43,983 nt of DNA from a virus (IMGVR_UViG_3300020395_000026:1-43983); one strand, 5' to 3'; shown: positions 547-31,600, numbered from the stretch's first letter. The notes: a model not told the origin generated them from the sequence alone. Translations and numbers: made by a program.

Positions 547-668
547 ATGAACACATAGACGCATTATAATGCACACATACGCATGTTTCACGCAGGTGTG
601 TGCAGTCTATACATTGGCATACAGATATGAGATGGCAGAGGATGTGCCACCTATGAAACTGTATTATA

Positions 669-695
669 GTCGGTTGTTCTCCTATTGCAACCGAC
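669..695 (+). terminator. Hairpin, 8-bp stem GTCGGTTG/CAACCGAC
   Basis: A perfect 8-bp stem encloses an 11-base loop just before the repeat element at 699. There is no long T tract, so termination is only suggested. The stem resembles the GCGGTTG/CAACCGC hairpin at 2092-2111. Confidence 0.5.
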
Positions 696-698
696 CTT

Positions 699-720
699 GT
701 GCCACTTTGTGAACTGGCAC
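699..720 (+). repeat. 3'-end element, copy 1 (GTGCCA-N10-TGGCAC)
   Basis: Perfect 6-bp inverted repeat with a 10-base spacer that contains an in-frame TGA for the tiny frame starting at 653. It has the same layout as the copies at 859, 1166 and 2957. Confidence 0.75.
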
Positions 721-824
721 ATAGGCATTAATATTTGTTACCTAATAATAATTCATCGCAGGGGGAGTGGCGAAGATTTTTGTCCTCGGTGATACCCCTC
801 ACCTCTTTCAGTTGTTACACATAT

Positions 825-830
825 TATAAT
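825..830 (+). promoter_or_regulatory. -10 box TATAAT without a clear -35
   Basis: A perfect -10 hexamer in the ATATTATAATTCAT context lies 115 bases before the ORF at 946. No good -35 hexamer is at the right distance. The similar context at 3263 precedes a gene closely, so the box may be real. Confidence 0.35.
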
Positions 831-858
831 TCATCTGAACATAAAATCTACCCATGTT

Positions 859-880
859 GTGCCACTTATTAAACTGGCAC
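859..880 (+). repeat. 3'-end element, copy 2 (GTGCCA-N10-TGGCAC)
   Basis: Perfect copy with the spacer CTTATTAAAC, which includes a TAA. It is followed by a weak ACCCCT...AGGGGT inverted repeat (893-925). No definite gene ends here, which makes it an orphan copy. Confidence 0.75.
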
Positions 881-945
881 ACTGATGGTTGCACCCCTTG
901 GAATTTGATGGCATCATAGAGGGGTAAACACAAAGCAGCATTTAA

Positions 946-1179
946 ATGATTGCATCTGAACAATTTGGTAGGCACTTCTGGATCTCATATGATGGAGATT
1001 TCTGCAGTTGCCCCACTTTCATTGATGGCACACCCGATAGGGCAAATATGGATTACCTTGAGAACTGGGAGGGTGATGATCTCACCGTGCTTGAGTTTAA
1101 TGAGATTGTAAGAATCTATCAACGCCTTCTTGCCAGAAAAGAAAGTGGATGGTTAGATAAGATCTGTGCCAATTTTTAA
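946..1179 (+). CDS. Unknown 77-residue protein
   Basis: The family is not recognised. The product is small and acidic. It begins MIASEQFGRHFWISYDG, has a CSCP pair of cysteines near residue 25, and ends in a basic helical segment (VRIYQRLLARKESGWLDKI). Stop codon TAA lies inside the third copy of the 3'-end element, and a clear terminator follows at 1192. This gene-element-terminator plan is shared with its neighbours and supports it being a real transcription unit. There is no Shine-Dalgarno at a useful distance. The start at 946 is the first ATG after the preceding hairpin. Confidence 0.75.
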   Translation: MIASEQFGRHFWISYDGDFCSCPTFIDGTPDRANMDYLENWEGDDLTVLEFNEIVRIYQRLLARKESGWLDKICANF

Positions 1180-1187
1180 ACTGGCAC
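1166..1187 (+). repeat. 3'-end element, copy 3 (GTGCCA-N10-TGGCAC)
   Basis: Perfect copy overlapping the last codons and TAA of the 77-residue gene. The stop ends three bases before TGGCAC, as at 712 and 2073. Confidence 0.8.
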
Positions 1188-1191
1188 ACAT

Positions 1192-1224
1192 AACCCCCAT
1201 TCGCTTGAGTGGGGGTTTATTATT
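1192..1224 (+). terminator. Rho-independent terminator
   Basis: AACCCCCA (1192-1199) pairs with TGGGGGTT (1210-1217), followed by TATTATT. It ends the transcript of the 77-residue gene. The TATTAT at 1218-1223 may double as the -10 box of the next gene. Confidence 0.75.
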
Positions 1225-1256
1225 AACACATACCAAACAAATCATTCTTTAAAGAA

Positions 1257-1772
1257 ATGAAAACTTCCATCACACCAGAGCAGAAGTATCAAACACTTTA
1301 TGAACAACTCTACACAGTTTGTGAAGAAAATGGTTGGGGTGATCCCTTCTCATATGCTCGCTCCCGTGAGATTCATATGGCAGGAATTTTGGGGCATACT
1401 GTTGCTGATGATTATTCAGGTGCAGATGCCTATGATGAAGAGGGAGGGTGCGAATATAAAAGCACTATTGCCCCTAAGATCAACGCAACTTACAATGGAA
1501 TCTCTGTTCAGGATACTTGGGCAGAACAGGAGCGTTACGTTGTGGAGGAGAAAATTGGCAACTACAAGAACCACTACTTCGCACGTTATGAGGGTGGCAA
1601 GGTTGCTGAGATCTGGAAACTCAAGTATTGGGATGTTCTTAAACTCATCCTACCATCTATTAAGAAACAATGGAAGGAAATTAATTCTGGAGTATCCACA
1701 AGAAAGGATCCTCGCATAGGTGCAAGAATCAATCACAATCAGATCTATGAGATCGGTGAAAGAATTCTGTAA
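1257..1772 (+). CDS. PD-(D/E)XK nuclease-like protein, restriction-endonuclease fold
   Basis: This 171-residue protein shows a credible PD-(D/E)XK catalytic core. Asp57 lies in SGADAYD, followed eight residues later by Glu66-Tyr-Lys68 in CEYKST, with an upstream helix glutamate in RSREIH (Glu38). Such nucleases cut DNA with Mg2+ at the D...E-x-K cluster. The segment INATYNGISVQ and the aromatic KNHYFARYEGGK look like conserved core strands. I recall similar proteins in phages, but I cannot name a characterised homologue. It may be a freestanding homing-type endonuclease, a host-DNA-degrading enzyme or a restriction-like nuclease. No partner methylase is next to it. It sits in its own unit, with hairpin terminators on both sides. 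The start is the ATG after AAAGAA. A second 139-codon frame inside it is a shadow. Confidence 0.75.
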   Translation: MKTSITPEQKYQTLYEQLYTVCEENGWGDPFSYARSREIHMAGILGHTVADDYSGADAYDEEGGCEYKSTIAPKINATYNGISVQDTWAEQERYVVEEKIGNYKNHYFARYEGGKVAEIWKLKYWDVLKLILPSIKKQWKEINSGVSTRKDPRIGARINHNQIYEIGERIL

Positions 1773-1790
1773 AGATTCTTAAGAAGAGTG

Positions 1791-1810
1791 GCAACTCCTC
1801 TCTGAGTTGT
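1791..1810 (+). terminator. Hairpin CAACTC/GAGTTG after the nuclease gene
   Basis: A 6-bp stem with a CTCTCT loop lies 18 bases after the stop. It is followed by TATGAT (1811-1816), a -10-like box for the gene at 1843. The T tract is poor. This unit lacks the TGGCAC element. Confidence 0.45.
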
Positions 1811-1842
1811 TATGATAACATTGTTAACCAAAGGATTCACTA

Positions 1843-2073
1843 ATGCAACTCCTCAAACTCGGCACTAATCAAACTCAGATCACCCTTGCTGATGGGCATC
1901 AGGTATTTTTCTCTTATAATACACCTGTTGCGGCAAGAACACCTGATTACGATTACTACAGAACAGAGCGTAAGTGGAGTGCCACAACCTCACGCCACAT
2001 CAACAAATGGTTAGAGGGTGTTAATGCTACCACAATGCCACAAGATTTCTTTGATAACCTAACCAGTAATTAA
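1843..2073 (+). CDS. Unknown 76-residue cyanophage-type small protein
   Basis: The protein begins MQLLKLGTNQTQITLADGHQ and then FFSYNTPVAA, a beta-hairpin-like pattern. It continues with Tyr/Arg-rich YYRTERKWSATTSRHINKWL. I recall this N-terminal pattern (LLKLG.N...ITLADG..VFFSY.TPVAA) from small phage and viral proteins of unknown function, possibly the DUF8033 family. I could not check that. The SATTSRHINKWL segment could contact nucleic acid. The stop codon lies in copy 4 of the 3'-end element, and a GC-rich hairpin follows at 2092. Confidence 0.8.
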   Translation: MQLLKLGTNQTQITLADGHQVFFSYNTPVAARTPDYDYYRTERKWSATTSRHINKWLEGVNATTMPQDFFDNLTSN

Positions 2074-2081
2074 ACTGGCAC
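2062..2081 (+). repeat. 3'-end element, copy 4 (CCAGTAATTAAACTGGCAC variant)
   Basis: The right half TTAAACTGGCAC is conserved. GTGCCA is replaced by CCAGT, which still pairs with ACTGG (5-bp stem, AATTAA loop). The core CAGTAATTAAACTGGCACA is shared exactly with the copy at 3214. Confidence 0.75.
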
Positions 2082-2091
2082 AACATGGGTT

Positions 2092-2111
2092 GCGGTTGCC
2101 CTCTCAACCGC
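2092..2111 (+). terminator. Hairpin GCGGTTG/CAACCGC
   Basis: A perfect 7-bp stem with a CCCTCT loop lies 18 bases after the stop of the 76-residue gene. It is followed by TATTAT (2113-2118), a likely -10 box for the next unit. There is no strong T tract, so it may be an attenuator or stabiliser instead. Confidence 0.5.
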
Positions 2112-2139
2112 CTATTATTCACATATCAGATTTAATTCA

Positions 2140-2277
2140 ATGTCTTTCCCACGTTTCGATGACTACCTCACAGACGATGCAATCGCAGCACTCATGGAGG
2201 ATGCCATCTCTGAATCATTAACAGAGGAAACAAAGCAGGATCTTGATTTCTTTCTGAATTCTAAAAACGATTTCTAA
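2140..2277 (+). CDS. Unknown 45-residue acidic small protein
   Basis: The translation starts MSFPRFDDYLTDDAIAALME and ends FFLNSKNDF. It is strongly acidic and probably helical. No family is recognised. It begins 22 bases after a TATTAT box and is followed, after three bases, by the next ATG. It is therefore the first gene of a three-gene unit (2140-2532) that shares the 3'-end element at 2531. Coding is supported by the tight packing and clean stop-start junctions. Confidence 0.6.
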   Translation: MSFPRFDDYLTDDAIAALMEDAISESLTEETKQDLDFFLNSKNDF

Positions 2278-2280
2278 CAA

Positions 2281-2415
2281 ATGACTCAAGTCACTTTGAA
2301 AAACACTAAGGCACAAATCTTTGATGCCTTACAAAGTGTTAAGGATGTAAGAGAAGAGCGTAACGCCCTTGCTATCCTTAGTATAATACTATTCACCACT
2401 ACTTGCCTTTTTTAA
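2281..2415 (+). CDS. Unknown 44-residue protein with hydrophobic tail
   Basis: The first 30 residues are polar and helix-forming (TKAQIFDALQSVKDVREERN). The last 14 (LAILSIILFTTTCLF) are hydrophobic and may be a single membrane segment. I recall small cyanophage proteins of this layout, but they have no known function. It is the second gene of the 2140-2532 unit. Its stop TAA is directly followed by the next ATG. A TATAAT inside its 3' part (2381-2386) could be an internal promoter for the third gene. Confidence 0.6.
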   Translation: MTQVTLKNTKAQIFDALQSVKDVREERNALAILSIILFTTTCLF

Positions 2416-2532
2416 ATGCAACCTTTAACATCTGAGATCTACGCAGCACTCAAAGAAGCAGAGCGTAGGCAAAAGGAAGAGGTAATTTCTTATGCACCAC
2501 GCAGAAGAACCTCAATCTTAAACGATTATTAA
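2416..2532 (+). CDS. Unknown 38-residue basic small protein
   Basis: The translation is MQPLTSEIYAALKEAERRQK followed by EEVISYAPRRRTSILNDY. It has a charged helix and an Arg-rich patch (PRRRTS) that might bind nucleic acid. It abuts the preceding stop codon with no gap. Its own TAA ends three bases before the TGGCAC half-element, which is the same position as in other units and the best evidence that it is a real gene. The family is unknown. Confidence 0.55.
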   Translation: MQPLTSEIYAALKEAERRQKEEVISYAPRRRTSILNDY

Positions 2533-2540
2533 ATTGGCAC
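2531..2540 (+). repeat. 3'-end element, copy 5 (half element AAATTGGCAC)
   Basis: Only the right half is present, with one C-to-T change. It directly joins the terminator at 2544. Confidence 0.6.
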
Positions 2541-2543
2541 AAA

Positions 2544-2568
2544 GGGGGTTCACACCCCCTCTTTTTTT
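2544..2568 (+). terminator. Strong rho-independent terminator
   Basis: GGGGGT and ACCCCC form a 6-bp GC stem with a TCAC loop, then a T-rich run (2560-2568). The -10 box of the next gene starts three bases later, so termination and initiation are packed back to back. Confidence 0.9.
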
Positions 2569-2570
2569 GC

Positions 2571-2583
2571 TATACTGTGTATA
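2571..2583 (+). promoter_or_regulatory. -10 box in the palindrome TATAC-TGT-GTATA
   Basis: TATACT (2571-2576), with TG one base upstream, makes an extended -10. The same bases form the inverted repeat TATAC-TGT-GTATA, an operator-like site. TATACTGTGTATATGAACAA recurs exactly at 3010-3029. The -35 region is occupied by the terminator. Confidence 0.6.
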
Positions 2584-2783
2584 TGAACAAAACAAATCAA
2601 ATGAATCTCTCTAAAGAAGATCTACGATTAATCAACGAAGTTTTTACTCAAGCATACTGCTTTGATCTCCCTGAGAAGTGGGATGAGGAAGCGGAAGAGT
2701 ATTCCGATGTTGATGAAAACTCCAATTTCACCTCTGAGCGTTTCTCTCAGGTGTGGGATCTCATCTCAAAGGAGGTGGGTTAA
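2583..2783 (+). CDS. Unknown 66-residue acidic protein, probably leaderless
   Basis: The protein is acidic, with DLPEKWDEEAEEYSDVDENS in the middle and a C-terminal helix. No family is recognised. The frame is open from GTG 2577, but that codon lies directly after the -10 hexamer and could not be in the transcript. ATG 2583 is about where transcription should start, which would give a leaderless mRNA. ATG 2601 (MNLSKEDLRLINEV) is the alternative start. It is the first gene of a two-gene unit, and its TAA abuts the next ATG. Confidence 0.7.
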   Translation: MNKTNQMNLSKEDLRLINEVFTQAYCFDLPEKWDEEAEEYSDVDENSNFTSERFSQVWDLISKEVG

Positions 2784-2966
2784 ATGAGTTGCCTACATCA
2801 CGAAGTGTTATTAGAAACCTGTTACGATGAAGCGTGGGTGGATTACGCAAAGGCGAATAATCTAACCTTCGATCAACTGGATGCAATAGATCAGGATTCA
2901 GAGTTAGGTTACTTACCTATTATTGCAGATGAAGCACAGCGAAGATTTGAGGAACTGTGCCAGTAG
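2784..2966 (+). CDS. Unknown 60-residue acidic small protein
   Basis: It begins MSCLHHEVLLETCYDEAWVD and continues as a helical, acidic protein ending FEELCQ. I recognise the opening pattern (MSC..HE..LE.CYDEA) from small cyanophage proteins of unknown function. It is translated from the same transcript as the gene at 2583, with no intergenic base. The stop TAG lies in the full 3'-end element at 2957, and a strong terminator follows. Confidence 0.75.
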   Translation: MSCLHHEVLLETCYDEAWVDYAKANNLTFDQLDAIDQDSELGYLPIIADEAQRRFEELCQ

Positions 2967-2978
2967 GCAAAGTGGCAC
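2957..2978 (+). repeat. 3'-end element, copy 6 (GTGCCA-N10-TGGCAC)
   Basis: A perfect inverted repeat with a 10-base spacer. The spacer sequence differs (GTAGGCAAAG), so both the arms and the spacing, rather than the spacer bases, appear to be conserved. Confidence 0.8.
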
Positions 2979-3004
2979 AAGGGGGACACCATTCCCCCTT
3001 TTTT
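2979..3004 (+). terminator. Strong rho-independent terminator
   Basis: AAGGGGGA (2979-2986) pairs with TCCCCCTT (2993-3000), followed by more T. It ends the two-gene unit 2583-2966. Confidence 0.9.
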
Positions 3005-3009
3005 ATGGT

Positions 3010-3022
3010 TATACTGTGTATA
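3010..3022 (+). promoter_or_regulatory. Second copy of the TATAC-TGT-GTATA promoter
   Basis: Identical over 20 bases (3010-3029) to 2571-2590, including the start codon. The repeat covers the -10 box, palindrome, start codon and two further codons, and nothing upstream of the -10. Confidence 0.6.
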
Positions 3023-3219
3023 TGAACAATTTTAATCAAACCGCTTTCAATCCTTCTTTCCCATACACAGTGGTATGCCCATCTGCTCCCTTTGAGAATA
3101 CAATCAAAAAAACACTTGATGAGTGTTGGGGTTTATGCCTTGGGTTATCCGAAGAGTATGGATACGCTGCCGTATATTATGGCAAGTGCCTAATGGGTGA
3201 GTATCACAATGGACAGTAA
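3022..3219 (+). CDS. Unknown 65-residue protein, probably leaderless
   Basis: It begins MNNFNQTAFNPSFPYTVVCP and continues with a compact Cys/Tyr-rich part (WGLCLGLSEEYGYAAVYYGK). No family is recognised. The frame is open upstream to 2923, but that stretch crosses the previous gene's end and a terminator. ATG 3022, seven bases after TATACT, is the only sensible start. There is no room for a leader, so a leaderless transcript is inferred. The stop lies in copy 7 of the 3'-end element. Confidence 0.75.
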   Translation: MNNFNQTAFNPSFPYTVVCPSAPFENTIKKTLDECWGLCLGLSEEYGYAAVYYGKCLMGEYHNGQ

Positions 3220-3231
3220 TTAAACTGGCAC
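3214..3231 (+). repeat. 3'-end element, copy 7 (CAGTAATTAAACTGGCAC)
   Basis: Identical to copy 4 over the CAGTAATTAAACTGGCACA core. CAGT can pair with ACTG. Here the first TAA is the stop; in copy 4 the second TAA is used. Confidence 0.75.
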
Positions 3232-3236
3232 ACACT

Positions 3237-3258
3237 AGCACCCTTCGGGGTGCTTTAT
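3237..3258 (+). terminator. Rho-independent terminator with UUCG tetraloop
   Basis: AGCACCC and GGGTGCT make a perfect 7-bp stem around TTCG, an exceptionally stable loop, followed by TTATCCTTT. It ends the transcript of the 65-residue gene. Confidence 0.85.
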
Positions 3259-3262
3259 CCTT

Positions 3263-3268
3263 TATAAT
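3263..3268 (+). promoter_or_regulatory. -10 box TATAAT for the 69-residue gene
   Basis: A perfect -10 hexamer 24 bases before ATG 3293, directly after the UUCG terminator. No matching -35 is visible. Confidence 0.55.
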
Positions 3269-3292
3269 ATTCATATACACATCAGAGGCACT

Positions 3293-3502
3293 ATGGCAAA
3301 AGCAATCGGAACTGTAAGAGCAACTGATACAAACATTAAGGGATCAGTTCTCCGTGCCTCATCAGGTAGAGGCGGCACATTCACACCAGCACGGGGATTG
3401 GGAAAGTGTATGGTAGCAGATTTGGAAGGGGTGATCACCCGTGCTAAGGCACAGTATCGCAAGGATCGCATAGCGATGATTCGTGAGGGAGCAGCAGCGT
3501 AG
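3293..3502 (+). CDS. Unknown 69-residue basic protein
   Basis: The protein is basic and Gly/Ala/Arg-rich (SVLRASSGRGGTFTPARGLGK), with a C-terminal helix (ITRAKAQYRKDRIAMIREGA). The charge suggests nucleic-acid binding; this is inference. No family is recognised. A weak purine-rich AGAGG precedes the ATG, one of the few Shine-Dalgarno-like sites here. It is the last gene of the minigene chain and is followed by a C-rich hairpin region instead of the TGGCAC element. An antisense frame over the same bases is a shadow. Confidence 0.7.
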   Translation: MAKAIGTVRATDTNIKGSVLRASSGRGGTFTPARGLGKCMVADLEGVITRAKAQYRKDRIAMIREGAAA

Positions 3503-3527
3503 GCGGTTCGTTCGTGTATTGGCAGTG

Positions 3528-3560
3528 CCCCCGTGATCGGGGGTTCGCCCCCCGCCCCCG
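3528..3560 (+). terminator. Two competing GC-rich hairpins
   Basis: CCCCCG-TGAT-CGGGGG (3528-3543) overlaps a second possible stem, CGGGGG-TTCG-CCCCCCG (3538-3554). The middle arm can pair with only one side at a time. Neither has a proper T tract, since TTTAAAAAA follows. The layout resembles an attenuator or switch but may only be a transcript end. Confidence 0.5.
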
Positions 3561-3669
3561 TTTAAAAAAGCATAACTACCCTAACCTACAAAGTGTTACG
3601 AAAGCGAGAACAATATTCCATAAGACTTCAAATTTTTTTTCGCTGTTAAAAAACGCCCACAGGGTTGAC

Positions 3670-9431: not shown

Positions 9432-12400
9432 ATGAGTATAGGAATTGATAAGAGAATTCAAGTCAACAGAATTATTGAGAGTCAGATACCTGAATTTTTA
9501 AGGTCTGATTTTCCTAATGTAACTGAATTTTTTAAACAATATTACCGTTCTCAAGAATTTCAAGGAGGTCCTACTGATCTAATTGAAAATTTAGATCAGT
9601 ATTTAAAATCAGATAACTTAGTTCCTGAAGTTATTCATGGAACAACTTCATTATTAGCGGCAATTACAGCATCTGATACAACTATTACCGTTGCATCTAC
9701 AAAGGGATTTCCTGATGAATATGGTCTTTTAAAGATCGGTGATGAAATTATTACCTATACAGGTAAAACTGATACATCATTTACTGGATGTGTTCGTGGA
9801 TTTAGTGGTGTAAGTGGATATAGTGTTGGAATATCTTCATCATTAGATAATGTTAACAAAGAAGGTTTATTATTTGAAAGTACTAGAGCAAATGATCATG
9901 TTGCTAGTAGTGTTGTTAATAATCTAAGTGTTTTATTCTTACAGGAATTCTATAAAAAATTAAAGAGAACATTCCTACCTGGATTAGAAGATAATGATTT
10001 TGCAGAAGGTATTGATGTTGGTAATTTTATAAAGAATGCAAGATCTTTTTATCAATCAAAAGGTATTGAAGAATCTATAAGAATATTATTAAAATTATTA
10101 TTTGGTGTAGATGCTAAAATATTAGATCTTGAAGAACAGTTACTTAAACCATCTACTTCCGAATTTATAAGAAGAGAAGTTATTATTGCGGAAGCAATTA
10201 ATGGAGATCCGTCTAAATTAGTTGGTCAGACCATTACAAAATCAACAGATTCTAGAACTAATGCATCAGTTTCAGAAGTTGAGATATTAACTAGAGAAAA
10301 TAAAATATATTATCAACTTTCTTTATTTGTTGGATTTAATGATAGGGATTTAATTGAAGGAACATTTACAATACCAGGTAAAACAAAGGCATTAGAACCT
10401 TCTCTAAAAGATTCTTCAGTACTTTCTGTTGATTCTACTGTTGGATTCGCTAAAACTGGTTATGTATTGTGTGGAATTAACTCAATTACATATAGTTCAA
10501 AATCAGTTAATCAATTCTTTGGTTGTACTGGTATTGAAGAAGATATTTCAACAGGATCTGATGTAAGAGCTGATGAATTTATCTTTGGGTATGAGGATGG
10601 TGATTTAACCAAGAAAGTTGATTTAAGGATTACTGGTGTTCTTTCAGAGTTTAAAACTGTTTCTGATATCGCTTTAGTTTCACCAGGTGAGAAAGTTTTT
10701 GTTAAAAATGTAGGAGAATCTATACCAAATCCAGATTTTAATAAAACTTATAAGGAAATATTTGCAAACTCATGGATATACAATACTAGTTGTAGATATG
10801 AGATTTCTGTAATCTCTGGTTCTAGTATTACAGTATCCAGTAAAGTAGATAAGTCTAGTGTAAAGGTTGGAGATATTGTTGAAATATTACAGAGAAACTC
10901 TGAAACAGTTGTAGCACCATTTGCAGAAGTTACTGGTATTAATGCTACTAAAACGGTATTAACAGTATCTGGTATATCAGCATTTACTCCAGTAGATGGT
11001 TTATTTTATGATTTGAGAAGAAAATTAAACAAAGCATCTAGTAGTGGTATAGAAATAAAGGAAGGAAATTCAAAAATATTATCAGATGTATCTAATGTTT
11101 ATATTGATGGTAAAACAGATGCATATGTTGCATCTAATTCATTACCATCTTATGAATTAGATTCTATAGTTAGAAGAATTTCTGTCGGAATATCATCAGC
11201 ACTTCCTAATTTAAATTGTTTTGATGTTGATCTTCAAACATATAACTGCATTCAGTTTGATAATTCAGATTTTAGATTAATTACAGGTGATGCTGTAGTA
11301 TATACTTCCGATGATCCATTGGAAGGGTTATCCAGTGGTGATCTTTATTATCTTGAAAAAATAGAAGCTACTACATCAAATGTTGGTTTTACTACTGTTA
11401 GATTATACAAATCAAGAGGACAGATAGGCACTCCAGATAATGCAGTTAGATTTAAATCTCAGACTACATCCAATAGTCATACACTTACAAGAGTAGATCA
11501 TTATGATAGAGATTTATCTGCAAATAAAATATTAAGAAAGTATCCATTAACCCAAAATTTATACGTATCTGGTACAGATGAGACTCCTGTTGGTGGAGTT
11601 GGTATGTTAATTAATGGTGTTCAGATAGAAACACCAATATCTTCGGATTATATTTACTATGGTCAAATTGATAATGTAGATGTTTATAATAGTGGTGACG
11701 GATATGATGTTATAAATCCACCAAAATTAGATGTTGATCCAAGTAATAATGGTGGAATAGATGCAATAGTTGAACCAATTATTGAAGGTAGTGTTAAAGA
11801 GGTTATAGTTGATCCTCATGATTTTGATATTGATGATGTAAAATCTATTGCACTAACAGGTGGAAATGGAGATGGTTGTGTATTAGAACCAGTTATAGGT
11901 ATTAGATTTAGAGAAGTTGAATTTGATAGTAGAGATATTTTCTTCTCAGGTGGTTTATCTATTGAAGATGAAACAATTACCTTTAAAACAGAGCATTTTT
12001 TAACTACTGGAGAGGTTGTTTATTATAATAGTAATGGTAATGTTGAAATTGGAACTGGACCATTTGGGGATGTTGGAAATACTGCTACTGGGTCATTAGC
12101 AACAGGAACACCATATGCTGTTAGTTTTGTAAATTCAAAAACTGTTAGATTACATAACACCAGTGAAGAGGCAATAGCAGGTATTAATACAATTGGTATT
12201 TCAACTTCAACTAATGCTAGTGGTATTCATAAGTTTAGAACAGTATCTAAGAAAACATTACAATCAGTTAAAGTATTAAATGCTGGTTCTGGGTATCAAT
12301 ATAGAAAATTAGAAGTTCAACCTGTAAATGTATCAACTGAATATTCAAGAATAGATTTTAATGGTCATGGATTTAAAAATGGTGATCTTATTGAATATAA

Positions 12401-15400
12401 TACTACAGGAACTGTGATTTCTGGATTAGATATTACTCATTCTTATCATGTGTTAAAGATTAATGAAGATTCATTTAAATTAGCAGATGCTGGATTAAAA
12501 GAATCGCCATCAGATGTGAATTATGTTAGAAATGACTATATTAATTTAGATTCAGTAGGAATAGGAACCCAGATATTCAAATATCCAGATATTAAAGTCA
12601 CTGCTGATGTAACATTCCCATCTGAAGTTACTGGAACATTTAATTTCACTCCAATTGTTACTGGTGGTATAATTGATACTTACACTTATGAGAAAGGAAC
12701 AAAATATGGATCAACTATCTTAAATCACCAACAAAATCCTTCAATAAAGGTTAGAAATGGTGAAAATGGTGTAGTAAGTGCATCCATAGTTGATGGTAAA
12801 GTAGTTGCTGTTCAAGTTTTGAACAGAGGTAAGAATTATTTCTCTCTTCCTGAGATTAAGTTAGAAGCAACTGGTATAACAACTACTGGTGTTTATGGAA
12901 GTGGTGCTATTTTAAAACCAGTTGTTGATGTAACTGGTAAATTACAAGAAGTAAAGGTTATTAATTCTGGTATTGGATATACTGCATCTCAAGTTTCTAT
13001 TAGTGTTAAATCTAGAGGATCAAATGCAATATTTGAACCAAGAGTTAGAAAATTAACTATTGATAATAATTTTAGACATGGTAATCATAATTTAAGTTCA
13101 GAGGATAATGATTTACATTTAAGTATTCACGGATATTCTTCAAATATTGCTGCTGAATTTAAGGATGATGGTTCAAAACATTCTCCAATTATTGGTTGGG
13201 CATATGATGGAAATCCAATTTATGGACCATATGGGTATACTAATAATACACAATTAGGTCCTTCTGTTGGAATATTAACTACAGGATACAAATTAGATGC
13301 AAGTAAAGTATTTGATAGACCTGATCATATTGCTGAATTTGTTCCAGGATTTTTCATTGAAGATTGGCATTATGATCCAGATTTAGGTGATCTTGACGAT
13401 CATAATGGTAGGTTCTGTAAAACAGACGAATTTCCTAATGGAGTTTATGCATATTTTGCTAGTGTATCTCCTAGTACCCAAACAAATACTTTAGAACCAA
13501 GTTTCCCATATTTTGTAGGTAAAACTTATAGATCACCTTTCATAGAGGTAAATGATACATTAAATCAAGAATTTGATTTTAATAATTCTAATCTATCAAG
13601 AAATACCTTCCCATACAAAGTTGGTGATTCAACAGCAAATAATGATTTTATTATAGAATCTAATGAATACTTAAGGCAACTAACCACTATAGAATCTGTT
13701 ACTACAGGTCAAATAGATGAGTTGCAAGTTTTAGATGGTGGTACTGGATATCAGGTTGGTGATTTTACAGATTTTGATGATACGGGAACTAATGGAACTG
13801 GACTTAGAGGTCAAGTTAAGACTATAGCAGGTATTGGTGTTTCTAGTATTAAAACCCAGTTAGAAAAGTTTGAAGGTGCAGTATTTACTTGGAAAAATTC
13901 TAATGAAGTTTTAGCAAAGTGGGAACCATTTATAGAATTGAATGATGGTGATACTGTTTCTATTAGTGAATTAACTAGTTCTATAACAAATCTAACAAAT
14001 TCATTCAGTGTTGGAATAAAAACTGATGTTATTGGTTTAGCAAAATCAATGACTGAAAATCCTATCACTCAAGGTAGAGTTGATGATATTTACGTTGATG
14101 TAATCCCTGATAGTGTTTCAGTTGGATCAAGTATAAGAATTAATGATGATGAGATTGTTAGGGTTCTTAATGTTTATGATATAGGTTCTATTTTAAGAGT
14201 AAAGCGTTTTACTGTAGGTGCTGCTCATACTTATGGATCTAAGTTAGATGTATTAAACAATGAATTAAAGTTCTCTGTTAAAACTGAGCAATTTAATTCT
14301 AAAAGAAATGAACTTGTTTACTTTAATGGTAGGCAATCTGTTGGTGTTGGAACAACAGCAGGTGGTGGTATAAGTGTTGATTATGTTGTAGGTGAAACAA
14401 CTATAGAAACACCAATTCCAACTAGAACAATTTATATCCCAGATCATCCATTTAAAACTGGAGATGAATTAACTTTCACGAAGAAAGGAACTGCTGCTTC
14501 TATGGTTGTTGGTGATAGTGATCAACCAACTAATCTATTCAATATACCAAATGTAACTACTGATACTTACACTGTTTATGCTATTAATAAAGGACAGAAT
14601 TATGTTGGTTTATTAACTGAAAGAACATCCATAGGAAGCACAAGTGAGGGTTTATTCTTCCACGGAAATGGTTCTGATGATTTTGAGTATGCGTTAGAAA
14701 CAAATTATGATCAAGTTACTGGTGATATTGATAAAATAACTTCTACAGTTCTCACAAAAGTTGCTGCTGCAAATACTACAACACATGGATTAAGTAATGG
14801 TGATGTAATTAATATTAACTTAATACCAAATACTGTTGTTGGTTTTGGTAGCACATCTCCATTAAGTGTTGAATTTAATGAAACTTTCCAAAAGTTAATC
14901 CTTAATAATACTGGATTTGAATCTAGTGCTATTGATACCGCAGATTCTTCAATAACAATACTTAATCATGGATATAAAACTGGTGATAAGGTTCTTTATA
15001 GTGCAATATTCCCATCATTTACACCTGCAACTGGTTTGAGTGAACAATGTTATTATGTTTATAAATTAAGTTCATCTAAGTTTAGTCTTGGTAAAACCCT
15101 TAAGGATGTTCAATCTGAACCACCATTATTAGTTAATATTACTGCGGCTGGTGTTGGAAATCATGCTGTTGGATTAGTTAATCCTCAAATTAAAGTTGCT
15201 AAAAATTCTAAGATATCTTTCCAAGTTTCTGATAGTAGTTTGCAGGGGTATGACTTAAAGTTCTTCTATGATCAGAAGTTTGAAAATCAATTCATTAGTG
15301 CTCAAGATGACAATATATTTAATAGATCGCAAGTAGGACCTGTTGGCGTTGGAACAACAAGTGTTATTTCACTTTCATATTCAAAATCTGCACCAAATTC

Positions 15401-18400
15401 AATATATTATGCTATAGACAAAGGTGGTTATATTAGCACAGCAGATTCTTCAATTGATAATTATTCTGAAATTAAATTTGTAGATAGTGTTTATGATGGA
15501 TCTTTCAGAATCTTTGATAGAACTGATGAATCTTTCAAAATTTCACCATCTTCAATACCAGAATTGATGTCATATGAAGAGGATCAATGTGAAGTAATTG
15601 AATATTCTACAGAATCAAAAACAGTTTTTGGTGCAATTAAAGATCTTAAAGTAATTTCAAGAGGTTTTGATTATAAGAGAATTCCTAAATTTACTAGTGT
15701 TGTTAGTTTAAATGGAAAAAATGCAAATATCGTAGCACTATCAACTTCAATAGGTAGGATTGGTGAAGTTAGGATAGTTGATATTGGATATGAATATCCT
15801 TCAGATAAGACATTAAGTCCAGAAGCATTTGTATCACCTGTTATTAGAATTGATAATGTAGATTCTATTGTTGGTATTGATGTAATTGATGGTGGAAAAG
15901 AATACCTATCTTCCCCAGATATTGTCATATTTGACCCACAATCTAATAATATTGTTGACGAAACTTCTGTAATTGCTAATACACCAAATCAATCTATTTC
16001 AACTGTTGAGATTATTGCTCCAATTCAAGGTTTAAATTCAGTAAATCATAAAGTTGTTGCAATAAACAATTCAAATGGAGTTGGTATCAATTCAATGGCA
16101 GGTAGTTCAGCTGGTATTGTTACTTGTACTTTAGAAACACCAATAACTGGATTTAGTATTCCACCATTTGCTGCTGGTGATGAGGTTTTTGTTGAAGGTG
16201 TTGAATTATTTGGTGAGGCGGGTATTGGATCTCAAACTTCATCTGCTGCTGGTATTGATACAACAGGAACTGGGTATAACTCTAAAAATTATAATTTCCA
16301 ATTCTTTAGAGTTGAAGAGTTTGTAAATTCAAATCCAGCTGTTCTAAAATATAGCATAGCAGGATTAACAACTAATCCTGGTGTTGCAAAAACATTCCAA
16401 TCTGGATATGCAACTATTGTAAACAAAGATAATTATCCTGTTTTTGAAGCTATCCAAGAAAGAGGTAAGTTTTTATTAAATGAAACTGTTTTGGTTAGTA
16501 TTAATGATCAATTCATGGATCAAGGATTAACTGTAGTAGAAAGTAGAGAAGATTTTATAAAGATTGATGGTAATTATGAACTACAGATAGGTGATAGAAT
16601 TAGAGGTGTAAACAGTAATGTTGGAGCAAGTGTAACAGATATTGTTGGTAATATTGCTAAATTTAAAGTAGATTATTCAAATCGTAGAGATTATGGTTGG
16701 AATGATAATACTGGTAAATTAAATGAAGATTTCCAAGTATTACCAAATAATGATTATTATCAAAATCTATCATATTCTATTAAGAGTCCTGTTACTTGGG
16801 ATAATTTAGTTGATCCTGTTAACAGATTAGTTCATCCTTCTGGACTTAAGAATTTTGCGGATGTTGGAATAACCTCTAGTATTAATGTTGGCATAGGAAC
16901 AACTATTCAATCAACACCAGTTATCGTTATAGATCTTATTGGTGATAAGAGAGTTGATACAATTAATAATTTTGATTTGGCAAGAGATTTTGATGCTAGA
17001 CCTGAAAATGATCCAACAAAGTCAAAATTTGTTACTTTTGATAACTTAAAATTAACAGATTATACATTGTGTAAATCAAATAGAGTTTTGATTCATGATG
17101 ATATTAGCGGAAAATTCTCAAGTACGGGATTTAAAGATCTATTTACAGAAATTGAAGAAGTTAATAGTGAGTTCACTAAGTATCTTGTTCAAATAATAAA
17201 TCCAGATACCAAAGATGTTCAGTTTAATGAAGTTGTTGTTTTAACTACTCAAAATGATGCATTTATTGTAGAAAAATCAAAAGATTTCTCAAATATGTTA
17301 TTAGGGGAGTTTGATGCATTATCAGATTCTTTCCAAAGAAAAACTTTAAACTTTACTCCAACCGATAGGTATGATAGGGATCATGATATTAAGATTTTAA
17401 AGACAGAATTTAAATCTAGTGCTCTTATATCTGAAACCAAAGCAATAGGAAGTGTTGATATAACTGGAACTAATGTTAAGGTTGCTATTGCTAATACAGA
17501 TTTAGATGCTAATGGTGACGTTATAGTTACTTCACCAAAAACAACAACTATAGCACAATTCTCCGAAACTGATTTTAATGGTTTTTATGCTGATGTTTTA
17601 CTTCAAGACGATGTTTTTAAAACAATTAATTATGGTGAAGTAATTGTTGATTTTGATGGAACAAACGTTTACTATGCTGAATCTTATATTGATAGTTTAC
17701 CTTCCAATTACAGTGCTTCTTCAGTTGGTATTCTAACTGCAAGATATGAATCAGGAGTCATTTATCTTGAATGTGAAAATGAAACTCTTAGAGAAATTAA
17801 CGTAAGTGCAAATATTGTTGGTTTGGGTAATACTCTTGCAGGTATTTCAACCTATAGATATGCGGTTCCAGGTCAACCTGAAGGTGCAGAAAGAAGTGTT
17901 AGATTAGAATCTCTTTATGATACTGGAACTTCTTCACCAATATTAGTAACTAAGATTGATAAGCGTATTGATAGCACGGTTAAATCGATTGTAAGGGTAT
18001 CTAATGAGAATAATGAGTCCGCAATACATCAAGTAGTTGTAATGCAGGACGAGGGGGATGCAGTGACAGTTATGTATCCTTTCACTGGTCAATCAGATGT
18101 AGGTTTAGGAGTATTTGATGCAGTTACTAATGGAGATGAAGTTAGTATTAATTTCTATCCAGACGCATCTCAAACAACATTAATTGAAGTTCAATCATTC
18201 AATACTGTATTTAATTCAGATAATGATTTTCAAAATACACCCTACCCTCTCGAAATAGGTCCAACTTCAAAAGAATTATTCTTATCTGCTTATGATGGAA
18301 TAAATGGATCTAGAGCAAATAAAGTTAATTTTGATTTAACACATGAGGGTGTTCCAATTTACAGTAAGGTATTTAATCCAGCAGATGTAGATGCAGAAAC

Positions 18401-21400
18401 TGGTGAATTTATAATAGATAATCACTTCTTTAATACAAGTGAAGAGTTAAACTATGAACCAGGATCAACATTTATAGGTATTGGTGCAACTCCAGTTTCT
18501 ATTGGATCCACAATGAATAATGCTGGTATTGTAACTGATCTAATGCCAGAACAAGTTTATGTTAAGATTAAAAATCAAAATAGATTTGAATTATACAGTA
18601 GAAGAGAATATATTACAACTGGTGCTGCAATAACATTCACTGGTCTTGGTGAAGGTAATGCACACAAATTGACTATGACAAAGGAACTATCTAAAACTGT
18701 TATTGGTTTAGATGGTATTGTTCAACAACCTATTACATTTACTTCAATTGAACATACACTTGATGGTGCTATTGGTGCAGGAACTTCACAGTTTGTTCTT
18801 AGTGGTATTAGTTCTGTTCAACCAAGAGATGTATTAAAAGTTGAAAATGAATATATGAAGGTTGAGCAGGTTGGATTCTCAAGTCTACCTGAAGGAACAA
18901 TCAATGATTCTACAGACGTTGCATTGGGTATTTGCACTTTACCAGTTGTTAAAGTTAGAAGAGGATCTTTGGGTATAGGAGCAACTCCACACGATGACAC
19001 AACCGCAGCCAGGGTTCATAGAGGATCATTTAATATAGTTGATAGCACAGCATGGTTCCTAGATCCACCTAAAGGAAATAGTAGAGAAAGAAGAAATGAA
19101 ACTAATTTGCCATATGTAAAGGCAGAATATTCTGGAAGAACTTTCCTAAGAAGTAGTTATGATACCAATATGGTATTTGATGATATTTCTGATGTATTTA
19201 CTGGAATAGGAAGAACATATACTATGACTGTAGGTGGTGCTAACACTGATACTGGTGTTGGTATTGGAAATGGTATCTTGTTTATTAACGGAGTATTCCA
19301 GACACCATTAACTTTGAATAATGCTGGAAACAACTACGAAATATTCCCAGATACAGTTTCTGGAATTTCTAGTGTTGTATTTACTGGAATTACTTCAGAA
19401 AACGGCACTCCAATGCAATCTGAATATGATATTAATCAGAATCAACTACCAAGAGGTGGTTTGATTGTTTCTATGGGATCAACTCCAGGACTTGGATATG
19501 CTCCTCTTGTTGGTGCTGAAGTAAAACCAGAATTGACTGATAATAGTAATTTATTTGCTGCTGGTTCAATAACAAGTATTGTAGGTATTGCCACATCTTC
19601 TAGGTATGGTTTAGGTATTCAAACTGCTGCTTATGATGGAGTAACTGGAATTATAACTGTTACTACTAATGATACTCATGGATTTGCTTTAGAGTATCCA
19701 AGCACTGTTAGATTAGAAGGATTAAGATTTTCTTGCCCAACTAAGGATGTTGGAACTCCTGAAGTAGGTGGAACAGTATATGAACCATCAACTGGTGAAT
19801 TAACAATAAAGATTACTAATCATGGTCTTCAAAATGGTGATGCTATTAAGTTTAAGAGAGAATCTTTACTATTCAGTTGCACTTACGGTAGTGGTGGTAA
19901 TGGATCTTATCCAAGAGAAGGTGATCCTGCCGATGATCAGTATCTAACTGTAGGTACGGTAACACCAGATACATTTAAGGTTAATGTATTGTTAGGAACA
20001 ACTCCAACTAATACAGATCCACATACATTCATCTCTGCAACTAATAATGCAGTTCAAACTCTTAATTATGTTGGAGTTACAACTTCAATATTCCAAGATC
20101 ATACTTCAGGTAAAGGTGGATTAACTGGATTAGCTGGTTTACCTGTAGTTGGTATCGTTTCTGAAAGATCTTTTGAAGTTCAGGTAGGACTTGCTACTAT
20201 TCCACACATTTATCAAGGTGGTGGTGATGTTTGGGAATGGTATAACGATTTAACTACAGGATCTGGATATAGAGATCCTATTAATGTTGAAGTTACTGAT
20301 ATAGAATTTGAACATAAGTTTGTTTCAGCAACTAATAGTGCGGTTGTTGCAACTGTTTACCAAGGTAATTCTCAATCATTTAAACCTGAAAAGGTTGATT
20401 ATATATCATCAACGGGTGATTTAATTTTAACTATTGGTGATAATCATGGATTAACTGGAGCATCAGAGTGGGATATACAAGGTGCATCATATGATCCAGG
20501 AACTGGTGTAGTAAGTGTTACTACAGGTGTTCTTGTTAATGGTCATGGATTCAATGATAATGATTGGATTAAGATAAAAGATAATTCAATGACATTCACT
20601 TGTGATATGGACGGAAATACTTCTGAGAAAACATATCCAAGAGCATCAGATCCTATAAGCGGAAAATGGGTTCAAATTACAAATGTATCTCAATTTAGTT
20701 TTGAGTTTAATGTTGGCACATCTCCTGGATTGGCATTTACACCTACTAATGCAGATTACGATCCAGTAACTGGATTGATGGAATTGGTAATAGGATCTCA
20801 TAATTTAACACCAGGCACAAGTGTTAAACTTGCAGCAGAATCTATCAAATTTATGTGTGATGTTGATAATAACAGTGCTGAAAAAGCATATCCAAGAGCA
20901 ACAGATCCTTATCATGATACAGCGATTAATATTGAATCAGTTACAGAAACAAGTATTACACTTAAAGTTTTAAGTTCAATACCATCTACTAATACAACTA
21001 GACATACTTTCTCTGGTGCTAATCCAAATGCAGTAACAACTGGTGGAAACTATGTTCATACTTTTGTTACTGGTAAAGATGCAGCTAAAAATGCATTATT
21101 AAGAACAACGGATACTGCTATAATATCTGAAAATTCTCTATCATTTACTTGTTCAAGAGATAACCATGATAGTGTTCATTCATATCCTAGATCAACAGAT
21201 CCAGCTGGTGGAAATTTACTTTTAGGTATAGAGAATGCCACAAGTAATACTATCACAGTTAATGTTGGATCTGGTGGTGGTGGAGGAACTGATGCTATTG
21301 TTGAGGCAAAAGTTGCTAGTAACAAACATAAATTTGAAAGTGCTGTTGTGGATGGTGTTACTGTTTCTTATGGAACTACAACAGTAACTGATGCATCTTA

Positions 21401-25628: not shown

Positions 25629-28600
25629 ATGCCACAAAAGACAAACTTAAATATAAGTCCTTATTATGATGATTTTGATAAGGCAGATAATTATTATAAG
25701 GTTCTGTTTAAACCTGGATATCCAGTTCAAGCAAGAGAATTAAATAATCTCCAGTCTATATTACAGAATCAAGTAGAATCTTTTGGTAGCCATATTTTCA
25801 AAGAAGGATCTATGGTTATTCCTGGTGGAGTAACTTATGATAGTACATATTTTTCAGTAAAAGTAAATCCTGATCATTTAGGTGTTGATGTTTCAATATA
25901 TTTGGATGCTTTAATAAACAATAATAATGGTAAAGGAACGAAAGTTATAGGTCAAAATTCACAAATAGTTGGAACTATTAAAAATTATATTTTACCGCCA
26001 ACTGAAGGTGTTGAAGATATTACACTTTTTGTAAAATATAATGAATCTGGAACAAATTCTATCAGTGAAATGTTCCCTCATGAGGAAATATTAACACTTA
26101 AAGAAAATGTCACATATGGAAATACTACATTAAATGCAGGAGAAACAATATTAACAGTCCTATCTGAAGATCCATGTCGAATTGGATCAGCTGTTGGTGT
26201 TGATGCTGGAATATATTTTATTAGAGGAACTTTTGTAAGTGTTCCAAAATCAGTCATAGTATTAGAACCATATTCAAATAGACCATCATATAGGGTAGGT
26301 CTTGAGATATCAGAAACTGTTATAACTTCTAATGATGATTCTGATTTAAATGATAATGCTAAAGGTTTTACCAACTATGCTGCACCAGGTGCAGATAGAT
26401 TTAGAATAACTGTTAGATTAGCTAAAAAAGCATTATTAGATTTTGAAGATACTAATTTTGTTGAACTTGTCCGTGTTAGAGATGGTGAGATTAAAAAACT
26501 TCAAGATAAGACGGAATATTCTGTAATTGCAGATTGGCTTGCTACAAGAACATACGATGAATCTGGTAACTATGCAATAAAACCATTTAGAGTTAATGTA
26601 CAAAATTCTTTAAATGATGAAATTAGATCTAATGGTCTGTATACTGAAGGACAAAAAACTGATGATGGAAATGATCCTTCTGACGATTTAATGTGTGTTA
26701 AATTATCTTCAGGTAGAGCATATGTTAGAGGATATGGAATAGATGTCTGGAATAAAGTTATAGACATTGATAAACCAAGAGATACTAAAACAAATAAAAA
26801 TGCATCAGTTGCATTTAGAATGGGTAGTTTGTTAAGAGTTAATAATGCAGAAGGAACTCCTTGGATGAATATTGGAGGAACAACTGCTAATACTATTGGT
26901 CTTTATAATCGTAGAAAAGGAACTGGTAATGTTGATCCATCGGGTGCAGGTCCATCTGGTAGTAATGCTATAAAGATTGGACAAGCTCGTGTTTATTCTT
27001 ATGGGGTATCGTCTGATGCATATAGTGGTGATTCAACAGAATGGGATCTTCATTTATATGATATTCAAACTTATACAATATTACAAATCTCAAATCCAGG
27101 AGCAGCTATCAATATTACAGTTCCTCTTTCAACTCGTGTTAGAGGATTAAGTAGTGGTGCAATTGGATATGTTGCAGAGCATACTGGAAATCCTAATGAA
27201 ATTAGTATATCTCAAACCACAGGATCCTTCATGCAAGGTGAGCAGTTAATTTTTAATGAACAAGAAAGTAAAAGTAAATCATCTATTATAAAAGTTCTTT
27301 CATATACTATAGATGATATTAAATCAGTATATCAAAATTCTGATTCATTAAATTCGGATTTAGTATCAGATTTTAGTGCTGATTCTGTTCTATATGATAG
27401 GGTATTACCTAATTTTTCTAAATTTGATCCTTTAACTGTTACTGGTGCTAGTAATGGAAATAGTGCATCTGCAGTATCACCTCGCAGGAGATTTGCTGGA
27501 AAGGTTGGTATAAAAACTGATTCTATAGTTGGATATTCAACTGATGTAGGATCTCAAACTTATAATAGAGTTGCTATTATACAACCAGATGGTGAGACTT
27601 TACAGTTACAACCAGTTGAAGATGTAGCTGGTGTTAATAGTGGTAGAATTATTGCAGGTGTAACAACTTCTAATGTATTCAGAATTAAATCACCTAAAAT
27701 TCTCAATTTAAATAATTCTGGATTATATACAAAATTATCAAAACCTAATGTTTCTAATGTTGATCTTTCAAATTCAACTCTTGTTATTAATAGGCAGGTA
27801 ACAGGTAAAACACCAGGTAGTGGATCATTAACTATTAGTACTGCAGATGCATTAGACGTTGCTGCTGGAATCACAAGTGCTTTCTTTGAACCATTTGACA
27901 ATGAAAGATATTCTATTCACTATAATGATGGAACAACAGAATCCTTAACATCAGACCAAGTTACTATTACCGATAATGGCAGTAATATAACATTTAGTGG
28001 TTTATCTCAGAATGTAGCATGTACTGTTAATGTAACCTTGAAAAAGGTAGGTATAATTAGTAAATCAAAAGATTTTATTAGAAGTTCTCAATTAAACATA
28101 ACAAACACTGTTGGTGTTTCTACTAATAGTGGAATGTCTGAAAGTAGTTATTATGGTTTAAGAGTTGAAGATAAAGAAATATCTTTAAATGTTCCTGATG
28201 TTGTAAGAATTCATGGAATTTTTGAATCGAAGGATACTAGTACCCCAACTCTTGATAGATTAACATTTGTTTCAGGTCTTGCATTAGATACTAATACAAT
28301 TGTTGGTGAGAAGATAGTAGGTAAGTCTAGTAGAGCAATTGGTCAAGTTGTTAATAGAGTATCTGCTACAGAGATTGAGTTTGTATATTTAAATGCAAAT
28401 ACTTTCTCTAAGGGAGAAACTATTAATTTTAAAGAATCTAATATTGAAACAAATTTACAAGGAATAACTTCTGGAAATTATGTTAATAGAACTGCAAATT
28501 ATACTTTAGATAAAGGTCATAAAAAGCAATATTCAGATTATTCAAGGATAGTTAGAAAACGTGCTTCTGGAATACCTTCTAACCAATTATTAATTATATT

Positions 28601-31600
28601 TGATTATTATAAAACTCAAAGTGCAGATAGCGGTGATTTATTTACTGCAAATTCATATACTAAGGATAGGTATACTACAGATGTTCCTCATATTGCAAGA
28701 GATAGAGGAACAGATATACTCGACTTTAGACCTAGAGTTAATGAATTTGATCCTGCCGTTCCTAAATCTCCATTTGATTTTAATGCCAGAACTTTTGAGA
28801 ATATGACAAAATATGTTGTTGCTCCTAATGAAAGTTCTATTGTAGGATATACCTATTATCTACCAAGAGTTGATAAATTGGTTATTAATAAAAATAATCA
28901 AGTTAAATTAGTAAAAGGTGTTTCTGCAGACAATCCAACTCCACCTACAGAAGTTGGTGATTCTATGGAAGTTGCTCAAATTACATATCCACCATTTTTA
29001 TACGATCCAATAAAAGGTCCTAAGATTAGGTTATTTGATAATAGAAGATATACCATGAGAGATATTGGTAATCTAGAGAAACGAATAGATAATCTTGAGG
29101 TTATGACTTCTCTTACTGCTTTAGAGAATGATACCAAATCTTTACAAGTTACTGATGCAGATGGTTTAGATAGGTTTAAAACTGGATTTGTAGTAAATGA
29201 CTTTAAGGATAGGAATTTTATAAACTTCAATAGAACTCAAGGTTCTAGATGTGATGTTGATGTTGTTAATAAAGAATTAATTAGTGCAGTTGATTTTTGG
29301 TCACTAAGAGCTGAATTAGCATTAGATCCTTCAATTGATGAGACTACTGTAGACACATCTTTAAATACTAAATTATTAGATGCAAATTGCCAGAAGACAG
29401 GTGATTTAATTACTTTAAAATATGATGAAGTTGCTAGTGAAATAAAAAATACACAAGCAACACAAGTTGAAAATATTAACCCATTTAATGTTATTGTTTT
29501 TGCAGGTCAAGTTAATTTAGATCCACCATCAGACAACTGGACTAGAACCATTTATATTGATGATTTTAGAACTGAATCTACTGGAGCAACTTGGTCAGAA
29601 GAAGCAAATATTGTTTCTGATACAACAACAGTTGATACTGACGTTAATGTAACTGAAACTGAGGTAGAAACCGATCAGGATATCTTTGAGGGTAATCATA
29701 GAGATATTACTACTACAAGGACAACTACAACAACACGTAATGTTGAAACATCATTTACAAACACCATTGATCCTTTAAGAGAATTTGATTATGTTGAAAG
29801 TGTTAAAATTAGTGGAGCAACAGATCCATTTATGCGTTCTAGAAATGTTGGATTTGATGCAAATGGTTTAAAACCATTCACAAAACATTATAGTTACTTA
29901 GATAGTGGAATACCAGATATTTTCCCTAAAGTAACTGAGATTGAGATGACATCTGGAACATTTACTGTAGGAGAAACTGCAAGTATTCTTAGGAATGGTA
30001 TTGAAATTGCTAGAGTTAGAGTTAAAGCACCAAATCATAAGTATGGTGTAGATCCAATTATTTCAACCACAGTTGCTACAACTACATCTACCGCTAATGT
30101 TGCTGGTGGAAGTATTGAAACATTTAGTGTAGATATTTTTGATAGAACAAGACCTGCACCATCTAATCTATACTCATCAACTTCAAAAATCTTTAATATT
30201 GATGTTGTTGCTTTAGCAAATGATGAAAGATATTTTGGATATATTAACAGAGGTTGTTCAATTGTTGGAGAATCAAGTGGTGCAACTGCAACTGTAACAA
30301 ATGCAAATTTATATTCTGATAATTGGGGTGATGTTATAGGAACATTCTTCTTTAGAAACGCTAATGCAGTTCCAGCACCTCCAACTCTATTCAGATCAGG
30401 AACAAAAACATTTAAAGTAACAGCAGCACCAGTAGGAACAGTAACTTTACCTGGAAGCACTGCAATGGCAAGTGATGCTACTGGAACCTACCATGCTACA
30501 GGAACGATCCTAACACAACAAACAAAGACTGTTGGTGTTAGAAATCCACCCGAACCACCACAAAGACCTAATGAAACAACAACAAGTATTAGTATAAATG
30601 AAGAATCTGAAACTGAAAGAATAGAGGCTCCATATAGAGATCCTTTAGCACAATCATTCAGAGTTGATGAAACTGGTATGTTCTTAACATCAATTGATGT
30701 TTATTTTGGAAGTAAAGATCCTAATGCTAAAGTATATGTTGAAATTAGAGACGTTGAATTGGGAACACCAACTAATTTCTTAGTTCAAGATTATGCACAA
30801 GTTTCATTAAATCCAAATGATATTCAAATATCTGATGATGCATCTATAGCAACTAATATTAGATTCCCATCACCAATTTATTTGGAAGGTGGTAAAGAGT
30901 ATGCTGTCGTATTCTTAGCACCAGCTTCCGACTTGTATGAAATGTGGTGTTCCACAATGGGTCAGAAAACTGTTAAAACTGCAAACCTACCAGATGTTGA
31001 AAGTGTTGTTCATACTAAGCAATATATTGGTGGTAGTTTATTTAAATCACAGAACGGAACTATTTGGACACCAAGTCAATATCAAGACTTAACATTCCAA
31101 TTATATAAAGCAGCATTTGTTCCTAGTGGAACAGTTACTTTCTATAACAGTCCAATTGAAGCTGGTGGGTCAAATGTTCAGATTTTACCAGATAATCCAG
31201 TTAAAACTTTACCTAGAAAACTTAAGGTGAATGTTAGCGGTCTTCTTGCTTCCGAAGCACCAGTTAGACGTAAGTTAAGCACTGGAGCTGAAGCTGATGA
31301 AGAAGATGGAAGTGTAACAGGTATAGTAGAGAGAATAGCTGCTCCTATTGATACTGCAGTTCAACCAGAAATTATTTCTGCTGGTGCTGCATATGAATTT
31401 GCTGGTCAAGTTGCTACAGGCAATGATTGGTATAAAAATGGTGTACCTATAAAATCATTAACTAGTGATGGTAGTGGAGCAACTGCAACTGTTACTATTG
31501 ACGGAACCACTGGGGCAGTTAAGTTAATTGAAAATATAACTGCAGGTAGTAGATTTAGTGTTGGTGATGTTGTTACTGTTGATAACAGTAGTGCTTTGGT

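Follow-up and report, generated by a model that had tools for sequence, protein, structure and literature searches.

The window analysed here, the whole 43,983-base stretch of IMG/VR virus record IMGVR_UViG_3300020395_000026, derives from a T4-like cyanophage near Prochlorococcus phage P-SSM2 (Salacisavirus), and seven copies of a 24 bp near-palindromic element lie close together at one end of it, within 698–3232. Judged from the sequence, this element is very likely the DNA operator of the promoter that lies downstream of it, where it would be bound by a dimeric regulator that is probably an activator and probably encoded by, or specific to, the phage. P-SSM2 matches the element region of the window at 78.9 % with 63 % of the query covered, and the gp6-like proteins of the two share 78.8 % identity.

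An earlier note on this DNA had described seven complete or half copies of two 6-base arms separated by 10 bases, GTGCCA-N10-TGGCAC. The copies and the arms were confirmed, with exact matches at 699–720, 859–880, 1166–1187 and 2957–2978, four where shuffled sequence leads one to expect 0.01. In three further copies, a good right arm is combined with a weak left one (2059–2082, CTAACCAGT...; 2518–2541; 3209–3232, ATGGACAGT...), the left arm of the copy at 2518–2541 being essentially missing. The 6+10+6 length did not stand. In 11 related cyanophage records and the window, the full element is 24 bp long, TGTGmCAsT-N6-AsTGkCACA, and as read from the relatives it is TGTGnCAGT-N6-ACTGnCACA. A model consisting of the element and a −10 box found no other copy in the rest of the window, 40 kb composed mostly of baseplate, neck and other virion genes.

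In the same 11 records and the window, the element ends 28–30 bp before a TATAAT box. TATAAT-like boxes are found 26–32 bp past the element at 14 of the 15 sites in P-SSM2, 24 of 25 in ACG-2014f, all 11 in AG-345-F15 and 11 of 12 in P-RSM4, against a background of 0.10–0.17, and 123 of 169 distinct metagenomic elements have such a box at the expected distance (background 0.099). Among the metagenomic copies, the offset of the TATAAT-like box from the element has a sharp peak at 28–31 bp, and that of a TTGACA-like box peaks at exactly 7 bp. When 72 sites were aligned, information was confined to the 24 bp element and the −10 box, with almost none between them and hardly any −35 consensus; a −10 box was a selection criterion for this alignment, but not for the offset-peak, whole-genome or 169-element counts. 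For 155 sites, with open reading frames (ORFs) called mechanically, the −10 box and the start of the next ORF are a median of 27 bp apart. Within the window, a −10-like hexamer follows every copy near the expected distance, and the −10 boxes that the earlier note had placed next to the copies hold for most of them; at 698 and 858 the plus-strand hexamer is weak and the best TATAAT is on the minus-strand side.

The element is shared by relatives. A leave-one-out model combining the element and the −10 box was run on the related records, the window, outgroups and shuffled sequence, and it returned 7–31 sites per record in the 11 related records (8 in Syn9 and 11 in P-TIM40), seven in the window and 0–1 in shuffled sequence. 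There were 4–6 sites in P-TIM68, S-TIM5 and S-B05 and none in T4 or HTVC008M, while no match to the element was found in RB49 or Ma-LMM01 at 3 mismatches. In P-SSM2, P-RSM4, P-TIM40, Syn9 and ACG-2014f, most sites are concentrated in a single genome stretch; wherever its annotation was read, the genes in it are small and unnamed. Hence, the element is present in relatives and its placement is not random, the earlier note having held that absence or random placement there would count against it. A scan of viral contigs yielded at least 120 stretches with an exact match to the element, and 71 with the stricter form TGTGACAGT-N6-ACTGTCACA. Rfam gave no family at the gathering threshold, and chance-level hits only at a lax one. 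In S-TIM5, a cyanophage outside Kyanoviridae, the half-site is often AGTGGCCCA, and at 163774, 165044, 165330 and 170888 a half-site AGTGGCCC or CTGGCCC lies 30 bp before TATACT-like boxes; these variants are possibly a diverged form of the element.

The spacer between the element and the −10 box is frequently occupied. GC-rich hairpins are found in it at 52 of the 155 sites (3.7 expected), and hairpins that end in a T-rich tail at 30 (0.35 expected), about one in five, and therefore the terminator of the preceding gene is often nested within the promoter of the following one. In the window, terminator-like hairpins follow five of the seven copies (1192–1217, 2543–2560, 2979–3000 and 3237–3254, and 2092–2111 with a poor T tract), and 560–3600 includes 12 terminator-like sites compared with 2.3 in shuffles, bearing out the chain of terminators and −10 boxes outlined in the earlier note. 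A stop codon falls inside the element at 63 of the 155 sites because the genomes are compact, the element itself belonging to the promoter of the next gene.

This overlap with stop codons, the ability of perfect copies to fold and the terminator that is often next to them are what might be expected of an RNA hairpin at the 3′ ends of genes, protecting the mRNA, controlling translation termination or guiding processing, as the earlier note had entertained. We consider this extremely improbable, as the spacing is set by the downstream −10 box and copies without a left arm, such as 2518–2541, retain the promoter. Moreover, the arms do not covary as an RNA structure would: at the variable arm positions of the 72 sites there are 52 pairs, fewer than the 66.5 (standard deviation 5.2) of shuffled arms, and an RNA hairpin or 3′-end element was rejected on this pairing test. 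Given this pairing deficit, the element probably serves at the DNA level, as the site of a dimeric protein. At one variable position, G opposite G is the commonest combination (33/72) and both halves are non-canonical in only 2/72, a pattern that suggests two half-sites bound by a dimer with one weak half tolerated. The selection on the arms that had been proposed was thus upheld, and the binding of a regulator, one of several roles suggested for them, probably agrees with an operator. That the operator serves a repressor or shut-off factor instead of an activator is unlikely. Palindromic dimer sites are typical of repressors also, and since part of the set shows a TTGACA-like peak at offset 7, some promoters could work unaided, but the 72-site set is almost without a −35 consensus and the site keeps a nearly constant distance upstream of the −35 region, where activators usually bind (class I sites).

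Sites with no more than 1 mismatch were found in just 9 of 300 Prochlorococcus-family genomes (3 for the reversed control), and since close matches are nearly missing from hosts, the regulator is probably encoded by the phages or specific to them in some other way. The genes neighbouring the few host copies make no coherent set, and a host-encoded regulon was rejected on both counts. It is, for the same reasons, quite unlikely that the phages have borrowed the site of a host transcription factor, though Pho and NtcA boxes are reported in cyanophages (PMC3037559) and a few host copies have TTGAC-like boxes 7–8 bp downstream. As a separate observation, some palindromes in four host-family genomes (L388, L391, L394 and L396) are followed 7–8 bp downstream by TTGAC- or TTGGC-like boxes, and a similar site may have a cellular or mobile-element user. 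We consider it very unlikely that the element is mainly a recombination site, the target of a site-specific recombinase or nuclease that swaps minigenes. When nine ACG-2014f isolates were compared, breakpoints hit 11 of 18 element junctions and 9 of 34 others (P=0.019), a difference confounded by shared ancestry and by spacer length, element junctions being longer intergenic gaps. Conserved blocks often start at the start of an element (several within 4 bp) or end 68–86 bp past one, and two genes and some promoter stretches have moved as units among the window, P-SSM2 and AG-345-F15 (see below). However, a constant distance to the −10 box is unexpected for a recombination site, and no conserved crossover core was seen in the 72 sites, whose central positions vary freely and carry little information, though no search aimed at recombinases was made. 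The breakpoint excess is modest, and ordinary homologous exchange via shared intergenic or promoter sequence explains the breakpoints as well as a special enzyme does. The cassette array envisaged in the earlier note stands as far as the shuffling of units among relatives is concerned, the breakpoints backing a recombination site only indirectly, and a role in cassette exchange is possible as a secondary one.

If the element is an operator for an activator, a dimeric regulator would bind the 24 bp near-palindrome, centred about 53–54 bp before the predicted transcription start (near −53.5 if transcription starts about 7 bp past the −10 box), and would help the host RNA polymerase to initiate at a −10 box for which no −35 partner is strongly conserved. 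Each operator–promoter would drive one or a few small genes. The spacer of about 29 bp would, in a good share of sites, also house the intrinsic terminator of the previous gene, so that a single stretch of about 60 bp would end one transcript and start the next. Several points weigh against this reading. In S-CRM01, a good TATAAT is present at the expected distance in just 6 of 20 sites, and promoters with a TTGACA-like box 7 bp past the element might need no activator. Phyletic profiling for genes found in element-bearing phages and missing from P-TIM68 and the outgroups recovered no recognisable DNA-binding regulator, the output being mostly virion-like and 2OG-oxygenase proteins, and no candidate emerged among 27 conserved short proteins listed, to which domain libraries were not applied. 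Early timing of the genes is presumed, after the early-gene element that Doron et al. 2016 reportedly described. Tentatively, the whole might be an undescribed composite unit, in which the operator for a phage-specific dimeric activator is joined to a nested terminator and to a preferred patch of homology for minigene exchange among cyanophages.

The features of the element region, with the small genes lettered A to J, are as follows.

698–721, no strand assigned: element 1, TGTGCCACTTTGTGAACTGGCACA; strong minus-strand promoter (TTGCAA; TATAAT 668–663) and weak plus-strand promoter (AATAAT 744–749)
858–881, no strand assigned: element 2, TGTGCCACTTATTAAACTGGCACA; TATAAT 828–823 on the minus strand, TTGCAC 889–894 and CATCAT near 912–917 on the plus strand
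1165–1188, plus strand: element 3, TGTGCCAATTTTTAAACTGGCACA; covers the stop codon of gene A (946–1179) and would drive gene B
1192–1217, plus strand: terminator hairpin nested in the spacer that separates element 3 from its −10 box
1218–1223, plus strand: −10 box TATTAT, 29 bp past element 3
2059–2082, plus strand: element 4, CTAACCAGTAATTAAACTGGCACA, left arm weak; covers the gene C stop
2092–2111, plus strand: hairpin in the spacer past element 4, T tract poor
2113–2118, plus strand: −10 box TATTAT, 30 bp past element 4; would drive genes D, E and F (2140–2532)
2518–2541, plus strand: element 5, TTAAACGATTATTAAATTGGCACA, half-site only; covers the gene F stop
2543–2560, plus strand: terminator hairpin with a T7 tract; overlaps a −35-like TTCACA (2549–2554)
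2571–2576, plus strand: −10 box TATACT past element 5; would drive genes G and H
2583–2783, plus strand: gene G; P-SSM2 counterpart at 66992–67165, between A and B
2956–2979, plus strand: element 6, TGTGCCAGTAGGCAAAGTGGCACA; covers the gene H stop
2979–3000, plus strand: terminator hairpin in the spacer from element 6 to its −10 box
3010–3015, plus strand: −10 box TATACT, 30 bp past element 6; would drive gene I (3022–3219)
3209–3232, plus strand: element 7, ATGGACAGTAATTAAACTGGCACA; covers the gene I stop
3237–3254, plus strand: terminator-like hairpin in the spacer from element 7 to its −10 box
3263–3268, plus strand: −10 box TATAAT, 30 bp past element 7; would drive gene J (3293–3502)

Compared with its relatives, the window has a different gene order, and the units that differ are bounded by elements. 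Gene G and its promoter, which follow F in the window and lie between A and B in P-SSM2, have moved, and the homology of this block begins at 2545, 3 bp past element 5, a half-site that is also present after the F homologue in P-SSM2. Gene I with the element that follows it is about 10 kb away in AG-345-F15, and the element–terminator–promoter stretch at 1167–1226, downstream of gene A in the window, is upstream of A in that genome. The 44-residue product of gene E (2281–2415) is 98–100 % identical in P-SSM2 and AG-345-F15, compared with 43–92 % for its neighbours.

Between elements 1 and 2 lies noncoding DNA (722–850) whose sequence (TAGGCATTAATATTTGT...TTCATCGCAGGGGGAGTG) is conserved in P-SSM2, AG-345-F15 and contigs L036, L108 and L147. 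It may specify a small RNA read from the minus strand; when 722–830 was folded, its stability was not unusual (z = 0.38). There are few genes in 1–560, which includes direct repeats of TTCGAGATCTTCGTGTT and TCATCTAGAT-like runs and is partly conserved in P-SSM2 and AG-345-F15. The virion region of the window includes very long ORFs at 9432–23966 (4,844 aa) and 25629–33137 (2,502 aa). The first of these comes after gp6, and a 12.7 kb gene annotated 'baseplate wedge initiator' occupies the same place in ACG-2014f.

A novel regulatory element of early genes, said to be widespread in T4-like cyanophages, was reportedly described by Doron et al. 2016 (ISME J 10:1437) in Syn9 and P-TIM40, and the element examined here is fairly likely to be the same. 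The published one reportedly belongs to phage promoters, and the sites found here are also present in both Syn9 and P-TIM40. They cluster before small unnamed genes and not among the virion genes of the window. The nested terminators, the compensation between half-sites and the association with breakpoints may be additional to what was described. In T4 middle promoters, the −35 region is weak and an activator site lies upstream. The promoters predicted here would share both features with them, but the MotA box, which is paired with a −10 box in T4, replaces the −35 element and is no long palindrome, and cyanophages have been reported to be without T4-like middle promoters and motA/asiA (PMC5780444). 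The NtcA and Pho boxes of marine cyanobacteria that occur in cyanophage promoters (PMC3037559) are likewise palindromic or repeated activator sites located upstream, but their consensus sequences (GTA-N8-TAC and CTTA-N7-CTTA, respectively) differ, and the present site is almost absent from hosts.

In T4-type phages, promoter–terminator cassettes known as PeSLs (Arbiol 2010, Comeau 2014) are tied to modular shuffling and were judged sparse in the studied region of S-PM2, according to one account (PMC4503421). They resemble the present units in being composites of a stem-loop terminator and a promoter that lie between small genes, and perhaps in a link to the shuffling of gene content, but in the present case the unit is preceded by a 24 bp operator-like palindrome, with the terminator inside the promoter spacer. 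A terminator and a promoter occupy one intergenic unit in a subset of sites only (T-tailed hairpins at 30 of 155, GC-rich ones at 52). No relevant paper joining cyanophage, TGGCAC and promoter was found in the literature searched, which did not reach Doron 2016, Arbiol 2010 or Comeau 2014.

As a precise signature that can be searched for, the element and its −10 box mark the promoters of small unknown genes in the variable regions of T4-like cyanophages and, thus, offer a way of finding such genes in metagenomes. They also raise the question of which protein binds a site that hosts hardly use. Were the genes truly early, this protein would have to come in with the virion, to be produced immediately, or to belong to the host and normally recognise another site. 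The nested terminators and the breakpoints suggest a route by which new small genes may slot into these genomes with their regulation ready-made.

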